A stretch of 64,000 nucleotides of DNA. Source: Methanolobus vulcani (lineage in GTDB: Archaea; Halobacteriota; Methanosarcinia; Methanosarcinales; Methanosarcinaceae). The notes under the pieces are model-generated. The model was given only the letters and a program-made list of their open reading frames with translations. It was not told the origin of the DNA and did not search any database. Where the stretch lies: positions 124,001-188,000 of the forward strand of contig NZ_VIAQ01000006.1 of assembly GCF_006546655.1 (NCBI RefSeq). Reading direction: 5' to 3'. Below are positions 11,661 through 61,786 of this stretch, in pieces. The position numbers and the translations under genes were made by a program. Each line of letters opens with the position of its first letter. Positions within the stretch are counted from its first letter, which is position 1.

Positions 11661-13208
11661 TTATTCCTCCTTGCTGCTCTCCAGGACATACATTAAATCG
11701 TCATCCTTGAAATGTTTGAGTTTCTCGGGGTCCAGTATCTTACCGATAATATTGGTGTTTCCAAGTCTCTCACCGGTCGGACCAAACAGGTCATCATCAA
11801 CTAATTTGACACCTATCATTCCGGCCCTCTTTGCAGCCTGGTTGGTAACACCGATCTCACCTGCAATTGCCTTTGCCGGAGTATTTTCCGGGAAGATCTC
11901 TTTATAGGATTCCGCAGGCTTTTCGGCCTTGAAGATATAGGTATTCTCGTAGGTCATCATTACAGGAAGCAGACCTACCGGATCGTACTGTAGACCCACT
12001 GCATGCCTGAAGAAATCAAGGGTCTTTGGAGCAAGATCATCGTAAAGCTCGATCTCTACAAGCATCTCAGGGTCAACGCCCTGTACTGTTACCTTCTTTT
12101 CATGCAGGATCTCAATAGTGGTCGATGGAGACTGCTTTACAATAAAACCGTCATCACCGGTATAGCCTTCTCTGGTAACTTCAATATCCTTCTGAGCCAT
12201 TTGTGCTTCTGCATCTGCATTGGTCATTCCAAGAAGCATAATACGATCAGGAACAGACTCAACCATAACTTTCTGACCTTTTTCTGCTATCCTTGCAAGT
12301 TCTATTCCCTGAACAACATGACCTATCACAGAATGCATGATAGATGAAGTGCGGGCATCGGTTGAAATGAAAAGTTTTCCGGCACCGTATCCCACAGTTC
12401 TCACAAAGACTGAACCTGTTGAACGAGCCTCAAAATTCTCGTATGTTACCAGTTCACCCTTGAACCTGTGATCGGATATAAATGAAGTTGAAAGATAATC
12501 AATATGGAACGTGCCATCCTTTGTTACTGCAAAGAAGAATTCTGCACCTTCAGGAGCCAGAGGATCAATTTCGATCTTGATGTAAGTGAAAATACGGTAA
12601 CCATCTTCAAGTTTTGTTGAAAGGTCTGTCGTGGAAATATGTTCTCCTGCTTTTTCCCATTCGACAACCGGTTCTACAGATAGTATCCTGTCACCCCTGT
12701 CAAGGTCGGAGATTACATGTTTTCCGCTTATCAGCCTTGCAAACACACCATCTTCAGGTGCACCATATTCCGCAGAGTGGCGGGTTTTACTTACAATGAG
12801 GTGCGTATTTGCAGCATCGCCGCCGCCTGCACCGAAAAGCAGTGTGAACCTTTCCATTTCGGAATTATCACGTGTAGTTTCCATATCAGTGCTGAAAGGA
12901 CCAAAGGCAAGTACATCCTTGTTTGTCCATCGTACAGGAAGTTCTGTAAGGTCTTTAAAAATAGAAATCCAGCGTTTGGAAGAAGGAGAAGATTCGTCAA
13001 GGAGCTCTATTTTGAACTCGCCTTTTGAGGTCTTCACAAGGTATTCCTTTGAAGCCTGTGATTTCTGATCTTCCTTCTCTATCAGAATACCAATCGCTGT
13101 ACCCTTTTTGTAAGGGGCGTTTGACACCTTGATGGCGTCCTCAAGGGTTGAACTTCCGGGTAATTTCAGTTCCTGTCCGTTGATCTCTACCGTTATTTCG
13201 CCACTCGT
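11661..13208 (-). CDS. mmp3: Methanogenesis marker protein 3, apparent ACG start
   Basis: A 515-residue protein if read from ACG at 13208. It has a ubiquitin-like beta-grasp N-terminus (VEINGQELKLP then STLEDAIK) and a cyclophilin-like segment near the end (ELYDDLAPKTLDFFRHAVG). Mmp3 is reported in the MCR activation complex. No ATG, GTG or TTG exists in frame between the atwA stop and the conserved N-terminus. GGAGGAG ends 8 bases before ACG, giving (M)SGEITVEINGQ. A GTG at 13307 would need a 71-base overlap with atwA, has no clear ribosome site, and adds unconserved residues. The start is inferred. Confidence 0.88.
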   Translation of the reverse strand, partial: TSGEITVEINGQELKLPGSSTLEDAIKVSNAPYKKGTAIGILIEKEDQKSQASKEYLVKTSKGEFKIELLDESSPSSKRWISIFKDLTELPVRWTNKDVLAFGPFSTDMETTRDNSEMERFTLLFGAGGGDAANTHLIVSKTRHSAEYGAPEDGVFARLISGKHVISDLDRGDRILSVEPVVEWEKAGEHISTTDLSTKLEDGYRIFTYIKIEIDPLAPEGAEFFFAVTKDGTFHIDYLSTSFISDHRFKGELVTYENFEARSTGSVFVRTVGYGAGKLFISTDARTSSIMHSVIGHVVQGIELARIAEKGQKVMVESVPDRIMLLGMTNADAEAQMAQKDIEVTREGYTGDDGFIVKQSPSTTIEILHEKKVTVQGVDPEMLVEIELYDDLAPKTLDFFRHAVGLQYDPVGLLPVMMTYENTYIFKAEKPAESYKEIFPENTPAKAIAGEIGVTNQAAKRAGMIGVKLVDDDLFGPTGERLGNTNIIGKILDPEKLKHFKDDDLMYVLESSKEE

Positions 13209-45343: not shown

Positions 45344-45459
45344 AGTTACCTATTTATTCCTTAGTTTGCATTGTATTTATCAGTTGATGTATTATTTCTG
45401 TAATTTTATTGAAAATTGTTTTATGCAAATATGATTCTTAACCAGATGGAGGTTATTCT

Positions 45460-46929
45460 ATTAACAACGTTGCAAAGGAGATTAACGCAACTGACAAAAC
45501 TAAGATCAAGCCCACATACCTTATTCTTGGTAGTGGCAGTTTTGGATTTGCATTAGCCAAGGAACTCAGGGAACTTGACAAAGAGCTTATTATCATCGAT
45601 AAGGATGAGCAGAAGGTTGAAACACTGCGTGAGGAAGCATATGAAGCTGTGGTTGGTGATGTTAGCGACCCGAACCTTTTTGACACAATCAACACCAAGA
45701 ACCTTGCAGGTATCCTTATACTGAGTTCTGATCCAAAGGCAAACAAAATAGCCCTCAAAAATATCAGGGAAAAAGTGTCATCAGATATCTATTCTGTAGT
45801 TAGGGCTCCTGATGTAATCAATATGCAGGAGATGGAAACCCTTGGAGCAGACCTTGTGATCATGCCTCCAAGAATGGTGGCAAAGTCTCTTTCAAGATCA
45901 CTTGAACGTGCAGAGGCAATGCGCAGAGGTAACAAACTTACCCAGTGGTTTGAGGCAAATAAAGGAAAAAAGCTTGGAATTGTGGTTCATGACAACCCGG
46001 ACCCTGATGCTATATCCAGTGCTCTTGCCCTGAAAACCATTGCATCATCTTTCAATGTTCTTGCAGATATCATATACCATGGAGAGATAGGACATCAGGA
46101 AAACAAGGCTTTTGTGAACCTGCTTGGAATTGATCTTTACAGATCGGAAGATGTCGGATTTACAAATTACGAGAACCTTGCACTGGTTGATTGTTCAACG
46201 CCAGGTGCTAATAACTCACTTCCAGCTGATACTCGCGTGAATATTATTATAGACCACCATCCTCTTCCTGATGCAGACATCGATGCAGACTTTATAGATA
46301 TCAGGCCACACGTAGGAGCTGCTGCTACTATTCTTACGAAATACCTGCAGGAACTCAATATTGATATTGACAGTGAGCTTGCTACAGCACTGCTCTACGG
46401 TATAAGGACAGACACTCTTGACTTCAAGAGAAATACCGATTCATCAGACCTTTCTGCAGCTTCATATCTCTATCCGGTATCTGACCATGATATACTGGAA
46501 CAACTAGAACGTCCTTCAATGTCAATTGAAACCCTGGACGTCCTGGGTGAAGCCATTAACAGCAGACAGGTAGTAGGAAGCTATTTGCTCTCCAATGTGG
46601 GAAGTATCCGTAACAGAGATACGTTGCCACAGGCAGCTGATTACCTGCTTAACCTTGAAGGTATTTCAACGTCGATCGTATTCGGAGTTACTGAAGAGAA
46701 GATCTACATCTCCGGACGCAGTAACGATATCAGGGTCAATCTCGGAGATATCATGAAAAGAGCCTTCGGAGAAGATGCTGGTGGTGGACATGCAACCGCT
46801 GCAGCCGCACAGATCCCTCTGGGAGTTTTCAGTGTATCTAAAGACCGCCAGACACTATTAAGACTTGTAAATGAAGCTGTCGTTAAAAGATTCCTGGCAG
46901 CTGTTGGTGTGGAAGAGACCGACGAATAA
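45460..46929 (+). CDS. TrkA-N/DHH-DHHA1 phosphoesterase fusion, apparent ATT start
   Basis: A 489-residue protein if read from ATT at 45460. A Rossmann NAD-binding TrkA-N domain (LILGSGSFGFALAKEL at about 22, then IIIDKDEQKV) is fused to a DHH domain (HDNPDPDAISSALAL and IIDHHPLPDADI) and a DHHA1 domain (GGGHATAAAA). DHH proteins cleave nanoRNA or cyclic dinucleotides. Between the in-frame TAA at 45439 and a GTG at 45649 there is no ATG, GTG or TTG, yet the Rossmann core lies there. GGAGGT (45448-45453) is 6 bases before ATT, which I take as the start. Confidence 0.85.
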   Translation: MNNVAKEINATDKTKIKPTYLILGSGSFGFALAKELRELDKELIIIDKDEQKVETLREEAYEAVVGDVSDPNLFDTINTKNLAGILILSSDPKANKIALKNIREKVSSDIYSVVRAPDVINMQEMETLGADLVIMPPRMVAKSLSRSLERAEAMRRGNKLTQWFEANKGKKLGIVVHDNPDPDAISSALALKTIASSFNVLADIIYHGEIGHQENKAFVNLLGIDLYRSEDVGFTNYENLALVDCSTPGANNSLPADTRVNIIIDHHPLPDADIDADFIDIRPHVGAAATILTKYLQELNIDIDSELATALLYGIRTDTLDFKRNTDSSDLSAASYLYPVSDHDILEQLERPSMSIETLDVLGEAINSRQVVGSYLLSNVGSIRNRDTLPQAADYLLNLEGISTSIVFGVTEEKIYISGRSNDIRVNLGDIMKRAFGEDAGGGHATAAAAQIPLGVFSVSKDRQTLLRLVNEAVVKRFLAAVGVEETDE

Positions 46930-53812: not shown

Positions 53813-54337
53813 TCAATCAGAAATTGTAAGATCACTTTGTTTTTCTTTTGCATCATCCTTATAATTGATGCTTTTAAGTTTCCAACCTTCGATATTACTC
53901 AACTCTTCATACAAACGCATGATGTCAGAGTCATCTCCGGTCCAATAGCAGTCTAAGACTGTGTCCTTGTCTTTAAGTTCTTCGGTTATAGAACCTGCAA
54001 GGTGAAAAAGAGCTTTTTTACTGGAAAAAGGAACATTGAAAGTTGTTCTGTAGCCGCCTTTTGACTTTGCATACGACACGAGAACATAGCCATGACTTTC
54101 ATATTCCATTATTTCGTCAAAATCACATATGAGTTCAAGTTCATGAACGGCCGAATGGTCTATATTGGATATACCTAAAAGTACCTTCCCTATGACTATA
54201 TCCGGCGCCTGCCTTCCAAACCATATGGAGATTTTACCGTAGGTACAAACTACGTTCACATCATCCCTCCCCATCTCAAAGGAAGAAAGGGAGAGATATT
54301 GCGATATTTCGTATTCTTTACTTGATTTCTGACCCAT
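53813..54337 (-). CDS. Hypothetical protein in the GTPase/DUF2073 operon
   Basis: A 174-residue protein that I cannot assign. It appears mixed alpha/beta, with a strand-rich centre (VNVVCTYGKISIWFG, VIGKVLLGISN) and a late region with CYWTGDDSDIM. There is no signal or membrane segment. It lies 17 bases after the DUF2073 gene and 17 bases before hxlB on the same strand, probably one transcript. Confidence 0.6.
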   Translation of the reverse strand: MGQKSSKEYEISQYLSLSSFEMGRDDVNVVCTYGKISIWFGRQAPDIVIGKVLLGISNIDHSAVHELELICDFDEIMEYESHGYVLVSYAKSKGGYRTTFNVPFSSKKALFHLAGSITEELKDKDTVLDCYWTGDDSDIMRLYEELSNIEGWKLKSINYKDDAKEKQSDLTISD

Positions 54338-54354: not shown

Positions 54355-54726
54355 TTACTTGTTTGTGGAAATGAGTGCACTGATCATATTGCGATCCTTT
54401 TTCAGGGTCTTTAACTGATCAGCAGGTCCGATAACAGTCAGACGCGTCTTAAGAGCATTCTTTTTGAGGATCTTTCCCAAAAAAGATGTGTCCACTTCTG
54501 ATGGGTAACTTTCCATCTCAATACCTGAAAAACCGTCTGGCTCAATAAGAGTCATTGTCATCTCGATAAGGTGTGCCTCCTCTTCAGGACTCAGACCTTT
54601 TTCAAGGACCAGTATCTTTCCGCTTTTTACCTCATCAATAATAAACCTGACCTTTTCCACAGGCGACATTTGTGATAATCTGTGCTCTGATACAAGATCC
54701 ATCTGGAAGCCCTGCATTGCGATCAC
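54355..54726 (-). CDS. DUF2073 family protein
   Basis: A 123-residue archaeal protein of the DUF2073 type (MDLVSEHRLSQMSPVEKVRFIIDEVK, then LEKGLSPEEEAHLIEMTM). It is usually found beside an Era-like GTPase, as here: its GTG start shares GTGA with the GTPase stop, which couples translation. An ATG nine bases later (54717, after GGGTGATC) is an alternative start. A role with the GTPase in RNA or ribosome processes is inferred. Confidence 0.82.
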   Translation of the reverse strand: MIAMQGFQMDLVSEHRLSQMSPVEKVRFIIDEVKSGKILVLEKGLSPEEEAHLIEMTMTLIEPDGFSGIEMESYPSEVDTSFLGKILKKNALKTRLTVIGPADQLKTLKKDRNMISALISTNK

Positions 54727-55358
54727 CCGAACCTCTTTGCAAGTTCTTCGTAGAAGGTCTCTACATTCTTACCTTCCAGGGCAGATATTGAAACCATTGG
54801 ATGTTGTGGGAAAGCATCCCTGATGGTTGAAGGAGAAGCTTCCGGAAGGTCCACCTTGTTAGCGACAATCAAAAGAGGAAGGCTCCTTGCTTCCATATTA
54901 CCAATAACTGTTACATTGACCTGGGTGAATGGATCCTCAGTTGCGTCCATTACAAGAATTACACCATCAAGGTTCTCAAGCCATTTTACAGCTTCAATGA
55001 CACCTTCTGTGGCTTCCTTTGCACGCCTCTTGGACTCTGCTTCATCCATGCCCTGTTCCATAAACTCATGGAAATCTATCTTAGTAGCAAGTCCGGGGGT
55101 ATCAATTATATCAAGTGTAATAGAACTACCATTGGTCTTGATAGTCACACCTTCCCTGCGCCTTGCCCTTCTTGTTTCATGAGCAACATGAGATACAGAA
55201 CCCATTGCATCACCGGTCCAGTCTCTCAGTATCCTGTTAGCAAGAGTGGTCTTTCCCGCATTTGGCGGACCGTATATTCCAATTCGGGCATTCTGTTTTT
55301 TAAACAGTTTTTTAAATAAGTCTGAAAAATTCCTTTTGAACGATGTGATTACGCCCAT
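54723..55358 (-). CDS. Era-like GTP-binding protein
   Basis: A 211-residue small GTPase: G1 GPPNAGKTTLANR, G3 DTPGLATK, G4 NKVDLPE, G5 SALEG. A basic N-terminus (about 1-25) precedes the G domain, and there is no KH domain, unlike bacterial Era. It is known in archaea as the partner of DUF2073; a ribosome or RNA role is inferred. GGGA precedes the ATG. It is the first gene of a run that continues to the aminotransferase. Confidence 0.87.
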   Translation of the reverse strand: MGVITSFKRNFSDLFKKLFKKQNARIGIYGPPNAGKTTLANRILRDWTGDAMGSVSHVAHETRRARRREGVTIKTNGSSITLDIIDTPGLATKIDFHEFMEQGMDEAESKRRAKEATEGVIEAVKWLENLDGVILVMDATEDPFTQVNVTVIGNMEARSLPLLIVANKVDLPEASPSTIRDAFPQHPMVSISALEGKNVETFYEELAKRFG

Positions 55359-55492: not shown

Positions 55493-56491
55493 TCATACAT
55501 TTCTTGACATTGCAGAATTTATAGCAATTTCAGCTATATTTGAACCGTAATCAGCTGTCCTGTCAATACTGTCAACAACTGTTCCAAGGGCAACCACAGC
55601 TCCGTATGACTTTATCTTGAGAGTAGCAGCATTTAGTTTGTTAACCATAGAAGACATACGGGCAACCCTGTCAATAACCTGGTTTGCAAGTTCGACATCA
55701 GAATTGTAAAGGGCATCAATTGCGTCCTCAACAATTTTTCTTGACATCTCAGATGTTGACTCGATCATTTCCATAATATCATCAGGAATTGATTCATTTA
55801 GGGTAGTTGTGACCTTTGCTATCTTACGCGCATGGTCTGCTATACGTTCAATAGGACCGGCTGCCATCCTGAGATCATGATATTCATCAATTGAGGTTTC
55901 AGCCGCATCAGGCAGCCTTGCACCGCGCAATATTGAACGGAACTGTTTTGAGATCAATAAGAACAGCCTGTCAACATCATCATCCCTCTGGTCCACGTCA
56001 AGTGCAAGATCTGCATCACGTGTCTTGATGGCTTTTATAGCATCAATGTGCATGGAATTGGATATTAGATACATTCTCCTTACACTCTTTTTGATGGATA
56101 TTTCATCAGGGTTTAAAAGATCCTGGATAACCACCTTCTTTGCAGTTTCCTCGATGATCTCAGGTCCTATAAGCTTGTAACACATGCTGCGGATGATGTT
56201 CTTTTGTTCCGCCAGTATCCTGTCTGCTTTTACCTCTATTATATCAGAACCTGCAAGATAAGCAGCTATCATATCCCTGATCAGCGCATCCCCCATGCTT
56301 CCGGTAACATCTATCTGTATCTTTCTTGTAGGAGGAGCATCGTGTATGGGATCTATTACCAGTTTCCCATCAGGCTGAGGTTGTAATGAAACTCTGCTGC
56401 CCGTCTTTATACCAACTTTGTCGGCCCAGGTTTTTGGAAGAGAAATAATATAAGTGGAACCACCTGTTTGCTGAACTTTTCTGGTTTCTAT
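55493..56491 (-). CDS. AbrB-PhoU phosphate regulator, apparent ATA start
   Basis: A 332-residue protein if read from ATA at 56491. An AbrB/SpoVT DNA-binding domain (ETRKVQQTGGSTYIISLPKTWADKVG) is joined to two PhoU helical bundles (about 100-330). Such proteins regulate phosphate uptake genes. An ATG at 56296 would remove the whole AbrB domain, which is intact upstream in the same frame. No ATG, GTG or TTG is in frame ahead of it. GAGGG lies 6 bases before ATA, giving (M)ETRKVQQ. Start inferred. Confidence 0.85.
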   Translation of the reverse strand: METRKVQQTGGSTYIISLPKTWADKVGIKTGSRVSLQPQPDGKLVIDPIHDAPPTRKIQIDVTGSMGDALIRDMIAAYLAGSDIIEVKADRILAEQKNIIRSMCYKLIGPEIIEETAKKVVIQDLLNPDEISIKKSVRRMYLISNSMHIDAIKAIKTRDADLALDVDQRDDDVDRLFLLISKQFRSILRGARLPDAAETSIDEYHDLRMAAGPIERIADHARKIAKVTTTLNESIPDDIMEMIESTSEMSRKIVEDAIDALYNSDVELANQVIDRVARMSSMVNKLNAATLKIKSYGAVVALGTVVDSIDRTADYGSNIAEIAINSAMSRNV

Positions 56492-56603
56492 TGAAATCCC
56501 TCGTTTATGTTTATAGATTACTTGAATATATAGAACACAATGTAATATATAGGCACTTCCCTTTAGATAAAAATATATATATCAACTTATACAATAAGCA
56601 ACT

Positions 56604-58212: not shown

Positions 58213-59829
58213 TCAATGCAAGAAGTGTCTCATTCCGGTGAATACCAATGATACACCCAATCTGTTAGCTGTATCAATGACTTCCTGATCCCTGATGGAA
58301 CCACCCGGTGAAAGAATATACATTATACCATTTTCTTCTGCGTGCACAACACTGTCATCGAATGGGAAGAAAGCGTCTGAAGCCATTACGCATTTTGCGA
58401 ACACTTCATTGCAGTATTCCTCGTATGACATGTCAGTGATCTCACGGTCGTACATGACCTTGAGGTTCTCACGTGCCTTTGTAGCAGCAAGTTTCCTGAT
58501 GGAATCAACCCTGTTTGGCTGGCCTGCACCCATTGAAAGCATCATGTAGCAGCCGTCAGCATACTCAAATGCAAGGGTAACTGCGTTTGATTTCACACAT
58601 TTGCATGCATGCATGGCAAACTCAGAAACTGCGCGGAGGTCTTCCGGATATGGAGTTTCTGTTACACAATCCCATTTGTCATAGATACCAACGTTGCGGG
58701 ACTGCTCCAGTATGCCGCCGATAACGAACTTGTAGGTATTCTCAACCTCGAATGGTTCGTTCAGTTCAGGCAATTCAAGCAGACGGAGATTTGCACTCTT
58801 GTTCTTGAGATATTCAAGAGCATCTGGCTCAAATCCAGGAGCGAGGATGATCTCAATGAACTTACCATTGAGGAACTCTGCTGCCTGAAGATCAAAAACA
58901 GTGTTTGTGCATATTATGCTTCCGTATGCGGATATTGGATCGCCGTCCCATGCTGCACCGAGTGCCTGCAAAAGAGTGTCACCGGTTGCAAGACCGCATG
59001 GGTTGTTGTGCTTTACAATTGCCACTGCCGCATTGGAACAGGATAATTCCTTAACGGTCTGGAGGGCATTGTCAGCATCAATGTAATTGTTATAAGAAAG
59101 TTCTTTTCCATGAAGTTGGGTTGCATTTGCAAGTGAAGGGCCGGTTACGTCATCTTCTTTATAGAACTTAGCAGCCTGGTGCCAGTTCTCACCATATCTG
59201 AGGGTTACGCCGTCCTTGTAACTAAGACGCAGTACTTCCTCACCAAGAAGTTCCTTACTAAGATATGTGTCTATGGTAGCATCGTAATCAGCTGTGTGCC
59301 TGAAAGCCTTTACAGCAAGCACTTCTCTTGTCTTCGGGGATACGACTCCTGTGGAACGAATCTCTTTTAAGATATGACCATAATCATCAGGATCGCATAC
59401 AACACTTACATAACGATAATTCTTAGCTGCCGACCTGAGCATTGCAGGTCCGCCGATGTCAATGTTTTCAATAGCTTCATCAAGCAATACGCCTTCTTTT
59501 GAAACTGTGATCTCAAAAGGATAAAGGTTGACCACTACAAGGTCTATCATTTCTACTTCTGCTTTCTGGGCCTCTCCCATATGGTCATGGTCATCTCTTA
59601 TGCTGAGAATTCCACCATGGATCCTTGGATGTAGAGTCTTAACCCTGCCGCCCATCATTTCAGGAAAACCCGTAACGTCTGAAACGTCCATGACCTCAAT
59701 ACCTGAGTCACGAAGTATACGGGCAGTGCCGCCGGTAGAGATAATCTGTATATCCAATGATTCGAGTCCACGAGCAAAATCTACAATTCCGGTTTTATCA
59801 GAAACGCTGAGCAGTGCTCTTTTTACCAA
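58213..59829 (-). CDS. purH: Bifunctional AICAR formyltransferase/IMP cyclohydrolase
   Basis: Last two steps of IMP biosynthesis. The 538-residue protein has the cyclohydrolase domain (about 1-200; LLSVSDKTG, STGGTARIL, GRVKTLHPRIHGG) and the AICAR transformylase domain with the KHNNPCG catalytic segment and ASDAFFPFDD. Both are intact. The TTG start at 59829 follows GGTGAT by three bases; a longer reading to 59901 would run into the upstream gene. Many methanogens use unrelated PurP/PurO instead, so this is the bacterial-type route. Confidence 0.95.
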   Translation of the reverse strand: MVKRALLSVSDKTGIVDFARGLESLDIQIISTGGTARILRDSGIEVMDVSDVTGFPEMMGGRVKTLHPRIHGGILSIRDDHDHMGEAQKAEVEMIDLVVVNLYPFEITVSKEGVLLDEAIENIDIGGPAMLRSAAKNYRYVSVVCDPDDYGHILKEIRSTGVVSPKTREVLAVKAFRHTADYDATIDTYLSKELLGEEVLRLSYKDGVTLRYGENWHQAAKFYKEDDVTGPSLANATQLHGKELSYNNYIDADNALQTVKELSCSNAAVAIVKHNNPCGLATGDTLLQALGAAWDGDPISAYGSIICTNTVFDLQAAEFLNGKFIEIILAPGFEPDALEYLKNKSANLRLLELPELNEPFEVENTYKFVIGGILEQSRNVGIYDKWDCVTETPYPEDLRAVSEFAMHACKCVKSNAVTLAFEYADGCYMMLSMGAGQPNRVDSIRKLAATKARENLKVMYDREITDMSYEEYCNEVFAKCVMASDAFFPFDDSVVHAEENGIMYILSPGGSIRDQEVIDTANRLGVSLVFTGMRHFLH

Positions 59830-59881
59830 AAAATCACCGTATAGGATTGGCGAATATATACTAAAAGGTTTCTGGTCAAAA

Positions 59882-61786
59882 TCAGGAATTGAATTTGACA
59901 ACAGGACAAACGCTTATGCACTGACCACAGTGTGTACATTTATCATTGATGATAGCCAGTCCCTTTTTGATTTTTATGGCACCTGATGGACATTTTCCAA
60001 CACAGACACCGCAGCCACTGCAAAGAAGCGCCCTTCTGACTGAAAGTTCCACTCTTCTCATGAGCCTGCGGGCGGACTTGTCTGAATCACTTCTGGCAGT
60101 CACACTACCTGAAGCAAAGACCTGGGCACGGTCCTCATCTTCGGTCACCATTGCAACGCCTTCCATGTATGAGGTATTTCCAACTGCCTCCAGCATTCCT
60201 GTCAGTTCCAGCCTGTTGATGTCCACAGGACCATCAAAACCACCTTCTGCGGATATTCCACCCTGCTTGCATGGACGATAACCAGTAGTAACAGTGAAAT
60301 TGAGACTGTACTCATTCTTACTCTGGGGAATAAGGTTAATTCCCTTTTTCTTTGCAATCTCTTTTAACGGGGCAGGCAGGTCCTTCCATCTCCAGAAACC
60401 GTGCTTTACCCAGTCCTCAGAAAGACCCATGCGCTCTGCATAGGAAAGCAGGTAATCATTGAGCTTTTTCTCCATTTCAGGGTGAGTTTCCTTGAGTCTG
60501 TAAAGGTCTGCAACGGAACATGATGGACATAGCCAGCATCCAATTCTGTCAAAACCTTCAGCGTAAAGTGGATTGTATAGCAGGTCATTCTTGAAAATAT
60601 AGAGCCACACATGCATTGCAGTCCAGTTCTGTATAGGAGCAGCAGCCACCTGGTTTCCTACCCACGGATTCTTCCAGACACGCTCACTCTTTGCTCTTGT
60701 GTCAGACTCGTATTTCCTCTGGCCGATGAAAGTGAGACATCCGTTCTCGAAATTATCATTAATGATCTGGGTGATTGGGCCAAGTTTACAGACTTTACAG
60801 CACCAGCGGACCTCAACACTTGGAGGACCGAAACTGTCAACTGAATCCCAGAAAGCATTTCCTGAGTCCATCATCTTCAGTGGTCTACCATAGGCCTCTG
60901 CGACATCATGTACATTCTTTACGGTTTCAGGAAACTCAATGCCTGTATCTGAAAACAGAAGGTCGTACTCATCAAGGCACTCACTTACAAGATGTAAAAC
61001 TGCAAGGCTGTCCTTTCCTCCGGAATAGGATACTGTGACCGGACGGTCTACTGATGAAGATACATTTTTGATGAATTTGTGGGAACGCTCAATGAAATCG
61101 TTCATGTAGTTCTCGTTGGCTTTTACAACATCATCCCAGGTCTGTCCACCCTCTGGAACCATGATATCAGCAGGTTCTTCCTTGAACCTCACTTTTACGC
61201 CAACACCCTTTCCTCTTTCGAGCATCTTTTCCCCGGTCATGCGGGTGCGTCCTACACCAAGGACTTTTCCTTCATGGGTAAGGACAACTACCTCTTCAGC
61301 TTCCAATATAGAAGGATCTGCATCCTTAATACCTGGAGCTAGTACACTGGCACCACCCAGAATGAACTTCTCAGCACCTGCATCAATCACAACCCAGTTT
61401 TTCAGGGTCTTGTAATCTGTATTGTCAAATATGCGCCTTGCACCATTAATTCTCAGAAGAAGAGTCCATTTGAGCTGTTCAAGCTCAAAACGTATGCTGC
61501 CTATGACCTCACCGTCTACAATAACCTCTTCCATACGGTCGTCATAGGGAGATTTATTCAATACAACCATGCGCTGGTCTGTGATTAATGGTGCATTGAA
61601 CTGCTCAACAGAAATCTTATTGATAAGCTCAATTTCATACGGAAAAGCAGGCCTGATATCTCCGGGAGGAGTGATAGTTACCTGTTTGGTTTTTGCCCCG
61701 CAGGAGCATTCTTTTCCGAGTACAGGAACGTTACATGAAGGGCACCAGTAAAGGAGCAGTTCACCAAGGTAAAGAGGTTTGGACAT
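59882..61786 (-). CDS. Zn-ribbon/PUA/PP-loop (PAPS reductase-like)/ferredoxin protein
   Basis: A 634-residue four-part protein: zinc ribbon (Cys15, 18, 27, 29), a PUA-like domain (about 110-205, AGAEKFILGGASVLAPGI), a PAPS-reductase-type PP-loop domain (SGGKDSLAVL near 250, with WCCKVC and CWLCPSC), and a C-terminal 2[4Fe-4S] ferredoxin (CSGCGVCVGKCP, CTHCGQCISVCP). The PUA domain binds RNA, so a thiolation or other RNA modification is more likely than sulfate reduction (inference). purH follows 52 bases later and may share the transcript. Confidence 0.87.
   Translation of the reverse strand: MSKPLYLGELLLYWCPSCNVPVLGKECSCGAKTKQVTITPPGDIRPAFPYEIELINKISVEQFNAPLITDQRMVVLNKSPYDDRMEEVIVDGEVIGSIRFELEQLKWTLLLRINGARRIFDNTDYKTLKNWVVIDAGAEKFILGGASVLAPGIKDADPSILEAEEVVVLTHEGKVLGVGRTRMTGEKMLERGKGVGVKVRFKEEPADIMVPEGGQTWDDVVKANENYMNDFIERSHKFIKNVSSSVDRPVTVSYSGGKDSLAVLHLVSECLDEYDLLFSDTGIEFPETVKNVHDVAEAYGRPLKMMDSGNAFWDSVDSFGPPSVEVRWCCKVCKLGPITQIINDNFENGCLTFIGQRKYESDTRAKSERVWKNPWVGNQVAAAPIQNWTAMHVWLYIFKNDLLYNPLYAEGFDRIGCWLCPSCSVADLYRLKETHPEMEKKLNDYLLSYAERMGLSEDWVKHGFWRWKDLPAPLKEIAKKKGINLIPQSKNEYSLNFTVTTGYRPCKQGGISAEGGFDGPVDINRLELTGMLEAVGNTSYMEGVAMVTEDEDRAQVFASGSVTARSDSDKSARRLMRRVELSVRRALLCSGCGVCVGKCPSGAIKIKKGLAIINDKCTHCGQCISVCPVVKFNS

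Follow-up and report, generated by a model that had tools for sequence, protein, structure and literature searches.

A conserved ATA codon as the likely start of an AbrB-PhoU gene in Methanolobus and related Methanosarcinaceae

Where does translation begin in a gene whose N-terminal DNA-binding domain lies ahead of every canonical start codon in its frame? The window analysed here, a stretch of 64,000 nucleotides from Methanolobus vulcani, contains such a case in the open frame at 55493-56581 on the minus strand, which encodes an AbrB/MazE domain and two PhoU domains. An earlier note on this DNA had proposed that the gene starts at ATA, arguing that the AbrB domain lies in frame ahead of the first ATG (56296) with no canonical start in front of it. 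Both observations stand. The AbrB/MazE DNA-binding domain (PF04014; residues 6-50, 56339..56473, minus strand; E 2.9e-12), which at 46.8 bits (cut-off 24.7) is the N-terminal domain type of the AbrB-PhoU family, lies wholly upstream of this ATG, while both PhoU stretches expected of the family (PF01895; E 1.3e-24, 86.8 bits) lie downstream of it, the first at 55811..56083 (E 1.8e-16) and the second at 55526..55756 (E 5.3e-9), both on the minus strand. A start at 56296 would thus yield a PhoU protein without a DNA-binding domain, as the earlier note had predicted. The in-frame stop upstream is a TGA with its first base at 56584, and none of the 30 in-frame codons between it and the ATA is ATG, GTG, TTG or CTG; the first in-frame ATG, GTG or TTG beyond the ATA is the ATG of codon 65 (56294..56296, minus strand).

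The proposed start, referred to here as codon 0, occupies 56489..56491 on the minus strand and would give a coding sequence of 55493..56491 (minus strand, stop included) with 332 residues counting the start. As the earlier note had read, GAGGG (56498..56502, minus strand), a Shine-Dalgarno sequence, stands 6 bases before the ATA, which is followed by GAA ACC AGA AAA GTT CAG CAA (ETRKVQQ). An in-frame ATT two codons ahead of the ATA (GGG ATT TCA ATA), adjoining the Shine-Dalgarno sequence, had not been mentioned there and is considered below. A probable TATA box (TATATAT; 56526..56532, minus strand) ends about 34 bases before the ATA. The TATA box is reported to lie some 19-22 nt from the transcription start site in Methanolobus psychrophilus (PMC5378194), and at that distance the AbrB-PhoU leader would measure about 12-15 bases, just room for a Shine-Dalgarno sequence; such a leader would exclude far-upstream starts, for example an ATG found 15 codons upstream in two relatives (L026 and L027). 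Over the probable TATA box there is also an inverted repeat (e.g. TTCTATATATCCATATATAGAA) upstream of L116, L117 and other loci of genera g10 and g7, a possible operator at which the protein could bind its own promoter. Arms of at least 7 occur in only 21 of 93 upstream regions (8 in g10, 7 in g7 and 1 of 27 in Methanolobus), so an operator-like inverted repeat is not a general feature of the gene. On the same strand, AbrB-PhoU is followed by the genes for a small_GTP-domain GTPase and for two proteins that gave no NCBIfam match (54726-55358, 54358-54768 and 53816-54337, minus strand).

To place this start in an evolutionary context, orthologues were read across the Methanosarcinaceae (f1; labels g1-g14 for genera and f3-f7 for other families are arbitrary). 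Matches at E <= 1e-90 were obtained in 93 of 111 genomes and all 93 were read; G092, with a partial match only, was left out. Three of the 18 genomes without a match at this threshold (G077, G079 and G102) are single-contig and 99% complete, implying that AbrB-PhoU is dispensable. In Methanolobus the gene is carried by 27 genomes and codon 0 is ATA in every one of them. Over the 93 family orthologues it is ATA in 70, ATC in 15, ATG in 8 and ATT in none, the ATG genes belonging to g6 (4 of 4 read), g8 (2 of 2) and g7 (2 of 11). In 89 of the 93, codon 0 is preceded at the normal spacing of 6-8 bases by a Shine-Dalgarno-like, G-rich motif; the four exceptions are g6 and g8 genes that start with ATG.

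The outgroup sample comprised 34 of the matches listed outside the family (10 from f3, 9 from f5, 3 from f4 and 12 from f7). Two f3 rows (L131 and L136) were left out as contigs ended or the frame was not found, and four others (L127, L133, L134 and L135) were shifted by one codon as the match began at residue 2. Of the 23 usable f3, f4 and f7 rows, 22 have ATG at codon 0 (f3 8/8, f4 3/3, f7 11/12, with one CTG), and the presence of ATG at the same codon identifies codon 0 as the homologous start position. The nine f5 rows have GCA, CCA or ACA there and a canonical codon 2 to 9 codons upstream, and seem to start further upstream. The four shifted f3 rows, all of genus g19, contain one TAA inside the AbrB-PhoU match, yet their frame runs for 328 residues from the match; this probably reflects a shorter C-terminus. 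The comparison of start codons that the earlier note had suggested as a check therefore supports its proposal: 85 of 93 family members have ATA or ATC at a codon where relatives have a canonical start, and these codons probably took the place of ATG inside the Methanosarcinaceae.

Is the identity of the codon itself of consequence? An inner isoleucine codon should vary: none of the 20 other columns that are all isoleucine in the 27 Methanolobus genomes keeps a single codon, and all nine columns with at least 95% isoleucine over the 93 family members contain ATA, ATC and ATT. The fixation of ATA in 27 of 27 is therefore more than chance. The 93 family and 32 outgroup rows, 125 in all, were placed on a quickly built maximum-likelihood tree with midpoint rooting, in which several branches are long, those of g8 among them. 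On it the codon-0 label requires 13 changes; the ATC label requires six and the ATG label, outgroups included, five. Inside the family, ATG arises at two places only, G045/G047 and g6 with g8, the lineages in which it is tolerated. One possible, if somewhat unlikely, explanation is that ATA is the true start and has no regulatory meaning, a strong Shine-Dalgarno sequence making weak codons adequate so that the codon drifts. This would accommodate the occurrence of ATA, ATC and ATG, the existence of ATG lineages and the sharing of the trait by genes of unrelated function (AbrB-PhoU, TrkA-N/DHH, Mmp3 and ProV; see below). However, ATG is a single transition from ATA and is reached at only the two places on this provisional tree, against the six changes of the ATC label, and ATT occurs in 0 of 93. 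That ATA and ATC have replaced each other repeatedly while ATG is so scarce points, by inference, to selection against AUG at codon 0.

The main uncertainty about the exact position of the start concerns the codon two places upstream. Codon -2 is ATT, ATC, ATA or ATG in 80 of the 93 genes, 11 of them with ATG, and a start there rather than at ATA has to be weighed; we consider it improbable. It would lie almost directly after the GAGG or GGGG core, at too small a spacing, and in most family genes codon -2 shares bases with the tail of a GAGGGAT or GGGGAATC block, so that its AT can be read as part of the Shine-Dalgarno sequence. In L035 a TAA stands directly before the ATA, after codon -2, which leaves the ATA as the sole candidate. 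In L122 the Shine-Dalgarno sequence is one base further off and codon -2 has changed to TCA while codon 0 remains ATC; codon -2 is GTA in three further genes and GTT in another three. The ATG of three outgroup families, moreover, is at codon 0.

Canonical codons further upstream offer no general alternative. There is none in frame in the window copy, and among the 85 family genes with a non-AUG codon 0, 61 have no ATG, GTG or TTG in frame upstream and five more have none within 8 codons. The remaining 19 hold a canonical codon within 8 codons: ATG at codon -2 in 11 (three of these also with GTG at -7, and six of the eight g10 genes included), GTG at codon -3 in four (two of these also with a TTG), and just one TTG or GTG, at codon -7 or -8, in four. 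In the 15 genes with ATG at -2 or GTG at -3, the start is ambiguous and the canonical codon may serve, although it adjoins or overlaps the Shine-Dalgarno sequence.

A third explanation, that only a short PhoU protein is made from ATG 56296, or that it is made as a second isoform, is very improbable, although a minor second isoform may exist. This ATG is the first canonical start of the frame and is the one that annotation programs would presumably pick; it has no GGAG or GAGG in the 30 bases before it. The stretch that the short form would leave out also evolves as coding sequence: within the genus, differences at the three codon positions amount to.088/.044/.436 for codons 1-60 and.119/.063/.485 for codons 66-300, against.51/.52/.54 in the flank lying 20 to 6 codons upstream and none at codon 0. 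Coding-type divergence from codon 0 onward indicates that the AbrB part is constrained as protein and translated, contradicting the idea that the short form is the only product, which the earlier note had named as grounds for giving up its proposal.

Another route to the full-length product, through editing of the transcript to AUG or through initiation in a different frame followed by frameshifting, is less probable still. In many Methanolobus relatives an ATG outside the frame does overlap the Shine-Dalgarno sequence (AAATGAGGG), but it is missing from the window genome (CGAGGG) and from many other loci; editing, for its part, would need to turn AUA, AUC, AUU and perhaps ACG into AUG, depending on the gene. 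A sequencing error or a decaying gene, for which no support was found, can be dismissed, as the ATA is present in 27 of 27 Methanolobus genomes, which excludes the correction to ATG that the earlier note had allowed for, and the open frame is under purifying selection.

Taken together, the best reading, and one that we hold to be likely as a whole, is that AbrB-PhoU initiates at a near-cognate AUA codon on a Shine-Dalgarno sequence and that the weak start most likely limits its output. In the simplest mechanism, the Shine-Dalgarno sequence, at its usual distance, would position the 30S subunit at AUA, with which the ordinary initiator tRNA (anticodon CAU) could pair despite a mismatch at the third position (at the second in the case of ACG). 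Initiation would thus be with methionine, and the product would begin (M)ETRKVQQTGG and keep its DNA-binding domain. Comparison of relatives supports the start site well, through the position of the codon, its conservation, the Shine-Dalgarno sequence and the coding constraint from codon 1 onward. On this reading the non-AUG start is old and was retained through most of the Methanosarcinaceae, with ATA and ATC exchanged several times, and it would most likely keep the output of a regulator low.

A search with one exact tRNA pattern gave four matches, two with the anticodon CAU (Met), one with TCT (Arg) and one with CTA. The two CAU matches are tandem initiator-type tRNAs, and no variant initiator anticodon was found with this one pattern; ARAGORN made no tRNA call in L327. 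The CTA match is an anticodon-arm-like sequence with CTA in its middle (G000:C1:321100-321112, GGGCTCTAAACCC), also without an ARAGORN call, which we take to be possibly a pyrrolysine tRNA.

Output may also depend on the stringency with which the initiation factor aIF1 proofreads start codons, as it does on IF3 for the bacterial genes infC and sigR. In Sulfolobus, aIF1 has been reported to discriminate against non-canonical starts (PMC6237735, PMC8211752). The aIF1 gene itself has an in-frame, N-terminal ATG in all 26 genomes with a match, so nothing suggests self-control of the infC type, which was considered and rejected; AbrB-PhoU is itself not an initiation factor.

The AbrB-PhoU start is not an isolated case. 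Each of the 56 coding frames of the window was set against three or four relatives in synteny, and two further genes were found to have a conserved N-terminus without a shared canonical start before it. The first is a gene with TrkA-N, DHH and DHHA1 domains (45460-46929, plus strand; open frame 45442-46929; Pfam and orthologues), whose proposed ATT start (45460..45462) stands 7 bases after GGAGG (45448-45452, plus strand). ATT is found there in 27 of 27 Methanolobus genomes, 23 of which have no canonical in-frame codon upstream; the exceptions are three in which an ATG lies five codons earlier and overlaps the Shine-Dalgarno sequence, and one with TTG. In 20 regions from other genera, the codon is ATT or ATA in seven (two with a canonical codon at least 10 codons upstream), the homologous codon is TTG in five, ATG is present in five (two at the homologous codon), and three have both a GTG near the Shine-Dalgarno sequence and an ATH codon.

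The second is mmp3 (11661-13208, minus strand; TIGR03268, E 4.7e-174), with a proposed ACG start (13206..13208) and a GGAGGAG at 13221-13215 on the same strand. The presumed start is ACG in 25 of 26 Methanolobus genomes and ATG in one. No canonical codon lies upstream in 14 of the 26, nine have a GTG inside GAGGTG three codons before, and the rest comprise one with TTG, one with ATG and the window copy, whose in-frame GTG is 33 codons upstream, within the preceding gene, and is not common to relatives. Sixteen other family members have ACG (12), CTG (2, in g7), GTG (1, in g11) or another arrangement (1); only four of them are without a canonical codon upstream, and in one f3 row the same codon is GTG. 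Since many copies hold a canonical codon nearby, the ACG start of mmp3 is proposed less surely than the AbrB-PhoU and TrkA-N/DHH cases, and the main claim is independent both of it and of the count of ambiguous AbrB-PhoU genes. At 58216-59913 (minus strand), a gene that we take to be purH-like has TTG as the first start shared by the window and four relatives.

To gauge how frequent such starts may be, 500 kb of G024 were surveyed against 500 kb of G008, giving 316 comparable genes, of which a script flagged 16 that were then sorted by eye. Seven of the 316 were judged in this way to have near-cognate starts with a Shine-Dalgarno sequence: AbrB-PhoU (ATA), TrkA-N/DHH (ATT), Mmp3 (ACG), ProV (ATT; L336:9694-10908), an ABC ATPase (ATA, immediately preceded by TAG; L330:2177-3082), CysK (ATC; L339:18828-19793) and a Nop56-like gene (CTG; L330:15742-16824), the last four located here in relatives. 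Two more, for 2-isopropylmalate synthase (L337:238-1776) and a TIGR00266-like protein (L333:3753-4607), have no shared canonical start before their conserved N-terminus; in the former, an ATCGCT...AGCGAT after GAGGG could form a hairpin. The remainder were three after an amber codon, presumably pyrrolysine genes, one alignment artefact with ATG and three that are probably not genes. A first survey of 300 kb within the same 500, with looser rules on synonymous change, had flagged 13 of 179 genes, of which only the three window genes were kept. For ProV, 15 of 21 loci of the genus have the arrangement TGAGG-N-ATW-NNN-ATT without a canonical codon upstream, five were not parsed and one frame (L366, from G026) is broken within a run of A close to its start, by decay or assembly error; the window's own genome gave no match at the threshold used. 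As an uncontrolled estimate from one genome pair and by-eye judgement, near-cognate starts may account for some 2-3% of genes.

The earlier observation is thus confirmed and is broader than stated, the ATA start being conserved and one of several such genes, which suggests conserved near-cognate start use in the Methanosarcinaceae. A more far-reaching proposal, to which we give not quite even weight, is that the family maintains a stable set of genes (some 2-3% of the genome, perhaps) with AUA, AUU, AUC, ACG or CUG starts and strong Shine-Dalgarno sequences 6-8 bases upstream, in which AUG is selected against and output is low and tracks aIF1 stringency, forming a start-fidelity translational regulon. 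If these starts are real, methanogen gene catalogues would miss N-termini, and in the case of AbrB-PhoU an entire DNA-binding domain. The near-cognate genes would also provide a direct test of how the archaeal ribosome judges start codons, a capacity shared with eukaryotes via aIF1/eIF1.

No account of archaeal genes with conserved AUA, AUC, AUU or ACG starts was found in the open-access literature searched. A Ribo-seq census of small open reading frames in Methanosarcina mazei, a member of the same archaeal family, names ATG, GTG, TTG and CTG as starts and puts the share of CTG among unannotated small frames at 5% (PMC11456600); 'ATA', 'ATT' and 'ACG' are absent as whole words from its main text. 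In two other papers, AUA is discussed as an inner codon and start usage is given as AUG, GUG and UUG (PMC3035285), or 'AUA' is an adapter sequence (PMC5316973).

Conserved non-AUG starts are better known from other systems. In chloroplasts, where UUG, GUG and CUG were tested, they are reported to serve the over-expression of proteins with high turnover (PMC9845219). The likeness to AbrB-PhoU, as far as that account goes, is that certain genes have retained non-AUG starts over long evolution; the differences are that the chloroplast is an organelle and that its codons are UUG, GUG and CUG.

In Escherichia coli, infC, which encodes IF3, starts with AUU and is controlled by its own product. It shares with AbrB-PhoU a near-cognate AUH start with a third-position mismatch to the initiator anticodon, but AbrB-PhoU encodes no initiation factor, and the gene for aIF1 carries an ATG. 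The non-canonical start of infC is also noted in a report on Streptomyces sigR, which starts with GTC and is repressed by IF3 (PMC5472188). From what that report describes, sigR is a regulator with a start other than ATG, GTG or TTG and a strong Shine-Dalgarno sequence, is conserved in one genus, was mis-annotated, and has a weak start that lowers its dose, all of which recall AbrB-PhoU. In contrast, sigR is bacterial, is controlled through IF3, with which aIF1 is thought not to share descent (PMC7531240), and was established by experiment, whereas AbrB-PhoU is archaeal, would use AUA or AUC across much of a family and is described here by sequence comparison. With these differences in mind, sigR is the closest studied parallel to the AbrB-PhoU start.
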